From Acidobacteriota bacterium (GTDB taxonomy: Bacteria; Acidobacteriota; Thermoanaerobaculia; Thermoanaerobaculales; Sulfomarinibacteraceae): 64,000 nt of DNA. This document shows, piece after piece, positions 13,395 to 15,142 of this stretch. Below the pieces are notes generated by a model that worked only from the letters and a program-made list of their open reading frames with translations, did no database searches and had not been told where the DNA came from. The number at the start of each line of letters is the position of its first letter. The stretch's first letter is position 1. The stretch spans positions 1-64,000 of the forward strand of contig WGCW01000044.1 in assembly GCA_015493585.1 (NCBI GenBank). The letters are read 5' to 3'. Both the position numbers and the translations under genes were made by a program.

Positions 13395-14714
13395 ATGCCA
13401 CAGTTGAACCCCGGGGAGCTCGAAATCGACCTGTTTTGTAAGGGTCTGAAGATTGATCCATCGTGCCGGCTCGACCGGGATGCGCGCCTGTTTGCGAGGA
13501 CCCGTGCCGGTCTGGGGTCCGGGCTTGAGATCGTCATTCCGGGGGATCTCAAAGATATCTGGATGAACGTTCCGGTCGAGGAGGATTTCTGCGCCCTGTC
13601 TCCCTACGTCATGCGGTTTACCGAGATGCTCGGCTACCACGTCGTCGACACCCGGTCCGGCCAGACGTACAGCGTCGAGATCCCAGAGACGCCGTCGTGG
13701 TACGAACGGAAGACATCGTCCGGTGTTCCCATGTCTCGCATCGGCGTGCTGCAGGGCACGTACCTCGGCATCTACATCTCGGAGGCGTGCATGTTCTGGA
13801 CGCCTCAGGAGAACGCGAACTGCAAGTTCTGCACGTCCGGCGTCAACGTCGGCGTCAACGAGCTGACGCGGAAGCGGGTTCGTGACGTCGTCGAGGTCGC
13901 CCGTGCGGCCAAGGAAGAGTCCGGTGTCACGTTCACCCACTTCAACGCCGGGTATCAATGGGAAGACATGCCGGAGCACACGCGGGCGCACGGTCTCAAC
14001 CGTGCGGCGCCGTTCGTCAAGGCGGTCCGCGAGGAGGTTGGCGGCTTCATCGGCGTCCAGGTCGCACCGGTCTTACCCCGTGATCACTGGAAATACGACT
14101 GGTTGACCGAGCTGGGCACTGACCACTTCTCGTTCTGCTACGAGTTCCACAACCCGGAGTACTTCAAGAAGTTCTGTCCGGGCAAGTACGGACACTTGGG
14201 GCAAGATGCCTTCTTCCGCGCCCTGGAGTACACGTCCAAGCTCCTCGGCAAAGGGAAGGTCTCCGGAGAGATCATCGCGGGCCTCGAACCGATCGAGGAC
14301 ACGCTCAAGGCGATCGACTACATCACGTCGGCCGGTGCCTTCCCGACGGTCTGCATTTTCAGGCCGTTGATCGGCGCCGATCTCGAACACTATCCCTCTC
14401 CTTCGTACGAGGACATGCGGCGCGTCTTCGAGCACATGTGGCGTGCGATGGTCCGGAACAAGATTCCGATCGAAATCGTCCCGAACATCGAGGTCAGCTT
14501 GGTCGTCCAGCCCGGCGATGCCGCCTATCTCGTGCCCAGGGACCGCACGTGGAAGGCGTACCGGCGGCGGAATGCCATGCTGAGAAAACTCGCCAAGCCG
14601 GTGGTCTGGTGGAAGATGAAGCCACATCCGGTCAAGGCCTCCGCTACTGACCATCCGAAGCTTCCGCCGGCTCCATCTGCCGCGCCGAAACCCGGGTCCG
14701 AGGCAGCGGCGTGA
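13395..14714 (+). CDS. radical SAM family protein with atypical CX10CX2C cluster motif
   Basis: ATG at 13395 (track start 13344 is upstream of the SD); ISEACMFWTPQENANCKFCTSGVNVG followed by a TIM-barrel-like sequence. Confidence 0.7.
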   Translation: MPQLNPGELEIDLFCKGLKIDPSCRLDRDARLFARTRAGLGSGLEIVIPGDLKDIWMNVPVEEDFCALSPYVMRFTEMLGYHVVDTRSGQTYSVEIPETPSWYERKTSSGVPMSRIGVLQGTYLGIYISEACMFWTPQENANCKFCTSGVNVGVNELTRKRVRDVVEVARAAKEESGVTFTHFNAGYQWEDMPEHTRAHGLNRAAPFVKAVREEVGGFIGVQVAPVLPRDHWKYDWLTELGTDHFSFCYEFHNPEYFKKFCPGKYGHLGQDAFFRALEYTSKLLGKGKVSGEIIAGLEPIEDTLKAIDYITSAGAFPTVCIFRPLIGADLEHYPSPSYEDMRRVFEHMWRAMVRNKIPIEIVPNIEVSLVVQPGDAAYLVPRDRTWKAYRRRNAMLRKLAKPVVWWKMKPHPVKASATDHPKLPPAPSAAPKPGSEAAA

Positions 14715-15142
14715 TCGTCAACATCACGGACGAGGGTGTCGAAGACGCGATGGCCACTGCCGCCGCGTTACCTGGCGGGCTGGACGTCTGGCGCCGTTTG
14801 CGCGATGGATCCGAACCTTTTCTGATCATTCCGGGCCGGACCGGCCTCGAGTGGGGCGTCGACAACCGGATCAAGGACGCGCCGAACCGGGCACGGCTCA
14901 AGCTGTTCGTTCCGGAAGGCCGGGCCGGCCTCGTCGTCCTTGTGGCGTTCAAGATTTCGCAGATCGCTTGGTCCCGCGACCGGTACGCCTACGGTGTGTG
15001 GGAAATCCCCGTTTCCGGTGGGAAGGCCACCCCAGATCCCGCCCATCTCGAGGCGTGGATTGCGTTTCAGCTGGCCGGCTTCCATCCGGAGCGCCGCCCG
15101 GAAACCTTGATCCGTCAGATCAGCTACGATATCCCCGATTGA
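14711..15142 (+). CDS. hypothetical protein, translationally coupled to radical SAM gene
   Basis: GTG start overlaps upstream TGA stop (GTGA); 143 aa, no recognised motif. Confidence 0.65.
   Translation: MIVNITDEGVEDAMATAAALPGGLDVWRRLRDGSEPFLIIPGRTGLEWGVDNRIKDAPNRARLKLFVPEGRAGLVVLVAFKISQIAWSRDRYAYGVWEIPVSGGKATPDPAHLEAWIAFQLAGFHPERRPETLIRQISYDIPD

Follow-up and report, generated by a model that had tools for sequence, protein, structure and literature searches.

The gene pair at the locus

We analysed a 64,000-nucleotide stretch of an Acidobacteriota contig, referred to below as the window, and focused on two forward-strand genes within it (Table 1). Among named genomes, the closest relatives of the source genome were Acidobacteriota / Thermoanaerobaculia MAGs. 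The first encodes a radical SAM protein (rSAM), and its reading frame runs from an ATG at 13395 to a TGA at 14714. The second encodes a small protein, designated P2, and runs from a GTG at 14711 to a TGA at 15142. An earlier note, made from the sequence alone, had stated that the GTG of the 143-aa gene overlaps the rSAM stop, and this was confirmed: the two frames share 4 nt, and the sequence GAGG lies 7 nt 5' of the P2 start. The same 4-nt overlap was seen in relatives from the window's family and in Planctomycetota, at many of the loci where P2 is adjacent to rSAM.

In the window, purL (assigned by eye) and then a PilZ-domain gene were located 5' of rSAM, whereas radA and Mla-type transporter genes (also by eye) were located 3' of the pair on the opposite strand. 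We saw no connection between these neighbours and either rSAM or P2.

Table 1. Features of the rSAM-P2 locus, numbered from the first nucleotide of the window
Feature	Position	Strand	Basis
rSAM gene, 439 aa; BioB/PylB-like barrel after an N-terminal domain	13395..14714	+	Match to NF045502 variant_rSAM; AlphaFold2; Foldseek
Codons of C132-X10-C143-X2-C146, predicted [4Fe-4S] ligands	13788..13832	+	Cysteines kept in 61 relatives
GTGA, P2 start overlapping rSAM stop; putative translational coupling	14711..14714	+	Sequence; overlap repeated in relatives
P2 gene, 143 aa; not assigned to a described family; alpha/beta fold modelled with confidence; adjacency and fusion mark it as partner of rSAM	14711..15142	+	

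The cysteine motif

The translation of rSAM reads ACMFWTPQENANCKFCTSG in the motif region, that is, C132-X10-C143-X2-C146, and the product around it reads EACMFWTPQENANCKFCTSG. The earlier note was thus correct in giving the spacing as CX10CX2C instead of the canonical CX3CX2C. An alignment of 61 relatives, which takes in distant and paralogous sequences, showed C132, C143 and C146 to be invariant, and for this reason the motif is not a product of chance. The first gap was X10 in 44 of these sequences, X11 in 11 and X9 in three, with X13, X14 and X3 found once each. The three clustered cysteines are the predicted ligands of a radical SAM [4Fe-4S] cluster. Three further cysteines (C15, C248 and C320) were conserved in at least 90% of the aligned rSAM rows, and a second cofactor site is possible there.

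The novelty that the earlier note implied for the wide motif did not hold. With the NCBIfam model NF045502 (variant_rSAM), whose cut-off is 125 bits, residues 69–351 of rSAM scored 177.7 bits, and a relative from the Nit1C gene cluster carries CX9CX2C; the wide motif is therefore a real but already known variant. A search of open-licence literature found no paper containing both CX10CX2C and radical SAM.

Family and fold of the large protein

Other models matched rSAM poorly. The Pfam Radical_SAM model barely registered it (14.4 bits), and scores fell below the cut-offs for TIGR04043, the MSMEG_0568 family of Nit1C (108 versus 303.7 bits), PylB (25.0 versus 348.2), LipS2 (21.2 versus 270) and BioB (16 versus 377). 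Because of these sub-cut-off scores, rSAM is not to be filed under any of the four families. Among the plasmid matches listed, those that were annotated were of the MSMEG_0568 type, and all were below 60% identity.

The AlphaFold2 model of rSAM had a mean pLDDT of 92.7 and a pTM of 0.92, and a Foldseek search with this model returned radical SAM barrels, with PylB (3t7v) as the best match (E = 1.9e-6) and MgmA, AprD4, HydG and LipA among the others. Model and matches together indicated a (partial) TIM barrel. A profile of the rSAM family run against the PDB sequence set recovered MqnE, BioB, ThiH, PylB, HydG and HydE. The barrel is preceded by an N-terminal domain of ~120 residues with the motif RAGLGSGLE, which is kept in nearly all relatives. 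Values of dN/dS for rSAM ranged from 0.045 to 0.10, compared with 0.11–0.26 for P2.

The small protein P2

The earlier note had assigned P2 to no recognised family, and our searches of Pfam, NCBIfam and PHROGs agreed, yielding nothing meaningful. A Pfam search of 23 P2 proteins likewise gave no meaningful match, glycyl-radical families included. P2 is nonetheless a real gene under purifying selection, because its dN/dS was 0.11–0.26 against four family relatives (dS about 0.9–1.8) and its start, (V/M)IVN, is kept among relatives.

The structure model of P2 was confident (pLDDT 94.2, pTM 0.88), and the predicted secondary structure consisted of two helices, five strands and one helix. Fold searches gave no significant match, with a best E of 0.11 in the PDB and 0.052 among viral models; weak matches to helix-grip and primase-like folds were not significant and were set aside. 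The fold is thus unmatched among solved structures and viral models, and it may be known among predicted cellular structures.

Across 23 homologues, the invariant residues of P2 were M1, R60, K81, S83, S88, D90, R91, Y94, G95, P126, R129, P130, R135 and P142, and these homologues shared no conserved cysteine, Cys-rich motif or redox cofactor motif. The excess of invariant basic residues (R60, K81, R91, R129, R135) suggests an anionic ligand, as far as residue conservation can indicate; alternatively, these residues could bind RNA or protein.

Pairing across genomes

Sampling of the window's class alone suggested that P2 was merely a local neighbour. An rSAM match was present in 53 of the 148 genomes searched, P2 occurred in only six genomes, all from the window's own family, and the neighbours of rSAM elsewhere in the class were varied. 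A scan of named genomes overturned this reading. P2 was found beside or fused to rSAM in 24 of 95 non-redundant loci, and adjacency extended over Acidobacteriota, Planctomycetota and Eisenbacteria, where the Eisenbacteria sample includes one MAG titled Latescibacterota. In two Eisenbacteria genomes (L101 and L209) the two proteins formed a single ORF of 572 aa, with P2 following rSAM and with diverged linkers between them. The gene order was swapped, with P2 5' of rSAM, at L090, and also in G157 and G257 as judged from coordinates.

Searched for in its own right, P2 was detected in 12 genomes of the Acidobacteriota sample (n = 297), 12 of the Planctomycetota sample (n = 246) and 6 of the Eisenbacteria sample (n = 47). 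Among these 30 genomes the two genes were adjacent in 23, fused in two and unlinked in three, and the remaining two had no detected rSAM; that is, rSAM was present in 28 of 30. For one of the two exceptions the assembly is 80% complete; congeners of the other do carry rSAM. Within Acidobacteriota, 10 of 12 P2-bearing genomes had rSAM, compared with 60 of the full 297 (Fisher's test, p = 2.8e-6, a value that ignores shared descent). The unlinked copies came from three Acidobacteriota genomes of one family; in this family (L168–L171) P2 lay directly 3' of a gene reading as cysS, far from rSAM.

At L172 (1351–3413), in a genome that is 80% complete and in which rSAM was not found, a divergent P2 lay between a QueD-like and an SDR-type gene and overlapped the latter by 4 nt.

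The earlier note had asked whether the 143-aa gene is always adjacent, and the answer was no: many rSAM relatives had no P2, including near relatives and the nearest order, and some copies of P2 were unlinked. Of 25 genomes tested that had no visible rSAM-adjacent P2, six carried P2 elsewhere or on another contig, and in two of these (L100, L151) rSAM reached the contig end, so that adjacency is possible there. Because P2-less rSAM is common, P2 must be dispensable for the role of the wider family, or else those enzymes differ in function. In a quick tree of rSAM, in which long branches were flagged, P2-bearing rows fell in several patches within one large clade, and P2 was present in none of the Brocadia-type and deeper Acidobacteriota clades. 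An ancient pair that lost P2 repeatedly would account for this distribution, as would repeated acquisition. We also observed that a MAG titled Candidatus Kuenenia stuttgartiensis (L098) carries a P2-type rSAM grouping with another planctomycete, L111, and apart from the Brocadia rSAM clade; the title of this genome may be wrong.

The earlier note had also proposed that the two genes are functionally paired, a claim to be given up if the neighbour was not conserved across relatives. Within the class, where P2 is confined to one family, the neighbour indeed was not conserved; however, it reappears in other phyla, and class-only sampling would for this reason misfire as a refutation. Occurrence of the pair in three phyla, together with the 4-nt overlaps, the swapped order and the two fusions, supported functional pairing.

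Gene context of the relatives

No third gene recurred with the pair among the flanking genes of the sampled loci, which were variable housekeeping genes in Planctomycetota and elsewhere; the surroundings of the pair therefore give no hint of its substrate. Planctomycetota loci had a shared set of neighbours (Tmk, HolB, CTP, ComM, MoaC and MoaB, by eye), but we rejected this set as a pathway because it is not shared elsewhere.

Some neighbours were noted in subsets of loci. A Nudix-type gene was located 3' of rSAM, or of rSAM and P2, at L101:6784–7188, L086:3492–3740, L107 and L127 (the gene after rSAM); these comprise Eisenbacteria loci and, with a P2-less rSAM, one Omnitrophota locus and another bacterial MAG. 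As a functional clue it is weak. In four P2-less loci from Aminicenantes and Thermoanaerobaculum-type genomes (L132, L136, L147, L148), a gene of ~80 aa resembling NfuA/NifU lay just 5' of rSAM, with a 186-aa call between the two at L148; rSAM was followed at L132, L147 and L148 by large genes that resemble Mfd and SurA as judged by eye. In one family relative only, a TtcA-like (PP-loop) gene overlapped the rSAM start (L032:6416–7189).

A proposed two-subunit enzyme

The pairing of rSAM with P2 is well supported, and very probably the two work as one enzyme. More specifically, we propose that they are the large and small subunits of a single radical SAM enzyme of the BioB/PylB/HydE type, a reading to which we give about an even chance. 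On the proposed mechanism, C132, C143 and C146 would sit on an extended loop of the TIM barrel and hold the [4Fe-4S] cluster, with which the large subunit would cleave SAM to a 5'-deoxyadenosyl radical, and this radical would abstract hydrogen from a small molecule serving as substrate. Docked on the barrel, P2 might use R60, K81, R91, R129 and R135 to help in binding or presenting a substrate that is anionic, so that its role would be in substrate binding and not in catalysis. The complex would probably be a lasting one, also where the subunits are separate proteins, because of the fusions and the dedicated pairing.

We considered three other explanations. P2 could be a dedicated chaperone, an electron-donor docking factor or a cluster-maturation factor that stays outside the catalytic assembly. 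Many lineages keep rSAM without P2, as might be expected of a helper, and Fe-S housekeeping genes (Nfu-like and ScdA/YtfE-like, by eye) adjoin some P2-less homologues; but P2 has neither a Cys-rich or redox cofactor motif nor a family match, and permanent fusions point to a structural subunit. We regard this explanation as unlikely, while giving it the most weight of the three.

P2 could instead be a protein substrate that rSAM modifies, for example at the invariant YG, a lysine or an arginine, with modified P2 as the working product. The dedicated one-to-one pairing in single copy agrees with such a role, as do the small strictly invariant set (which includes S83, S88, D90, R91, Y94 and G95) and the three Acidobacteriota genomes in which P2 lies away from rSAM, as a substrate protein could. 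However, fusion to the C-terminus of the enzyme is not what one expects of a substrate, even if a single-turnover reaction in cis can be imagined, and P2 is a whole conserved domain, unlike a RiPP leader with a variable core. Thioether chemistry needs a cysteine and none is conserved, and no Pfam match, to glycyl-radical families or otherwise, was obtained. This explanation seemed to us slightly less probable again than a helper role.

That rSAM is ordinary and its downstream neighbour unrelated, with an incidental overlap, would agree with the single-family range of P2 and the varied rSAM neighbours in the window's class, but it is contradicted by cross-phylum adjacency in unrelated contexts, by the fusions and by the swapped order, and we consider it very improbable.

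The two-subunit reading, if correct, has several consequences. By itself the wide motif would deserve no more than a footnote. With a conserved and sometimes fused P2 of no known family, however, what had been an anonymous 'radical SAM protein' becomes a defined two-protein enzyme, open to expression and assay. For annotation, a P2 gene is a cue to look for rSAM, and within the clade that bears P2 an rSAM gene is likewise a cue to look for P2. A P2 that contributes to the active site would give the radical SAM superfamily a new accessory architecture.

The earlier note had singled out the pair as a candidate for an undescribed two-gene system, and our results support this more strongly than sequence alone had done; a search of open-licence papers found no description of the rSAM-P2 pair. 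Our estimate falls a little short of even that this is a previously undescribed two-subunit enzyme present in three phyla, making some metabolite or modification, with a P2 fold absent from the PDB (or, more remotely, that P2 itself undergoes radical modification to become a new kind of catalytic protein).

Comparison with known systems

Two-component radical SAM enzymes include AprD4/AprD3, Dph1-Dph2, LipS1/LipS2 and PqqE/PqqD, and the pair described here resembles them in joining a radical SAM protein to a dedicated second protein. P2 is not a recognition domain of the PqqD type: Pfam gave no such relation in 23 P2 proteins, and P2 lacks the winged helix of PqqD and RiPP recognition elements. 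NF045502, which covers the window's rSAM, is a broad domain model named 'radical SAM protein' that states no function and does not mention P2.

The MSMEG_0568 (Nit1C) radical SAM protein is homologous to rSAM over both the N-terminal domain and the barrel, with 27% identity, and its motif CIRYESRKKTCQFC (CX9CX2C) is wide like that of rSAM. The Nit1C member differs in having a C-terminal CX2CX2C, which rSAM lacks, and in sitting with nitrilase, GNAT, AIRS-like and flavoprotein genes, none of which occur at the window locus. A role in Nit1C or cyanide metabolism was rejected for rSAM on account of the missing gene cluster and the sub-cut-off score. As of 2005 no reaction was known for any Nit1C gene (PMC1199592), and we found nothing on MSMEG_0568 in open-licence papers.

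Profile and fold matches place rSAM with PylB, BioB, HydE, HydG, ThiH, MqnE and LipA, of which PylB was the best by fold; the first gap in rSAM is X10 and not the canonical X3. HcgA (HmdB), from the same clade, has CX5CX2C and has been reported to hold a [4Fe-4S] cluster and to produce 5'-deoxyadenosine (PMC10100467). HcgA provides a precedent for a widened motif inside this clade, but its gap is X5 and not X10, it acts in the synthesis of the [Fe]-hydrogenase cofactor, and it has no P2. What appears to be new here is the pair, not the motif.
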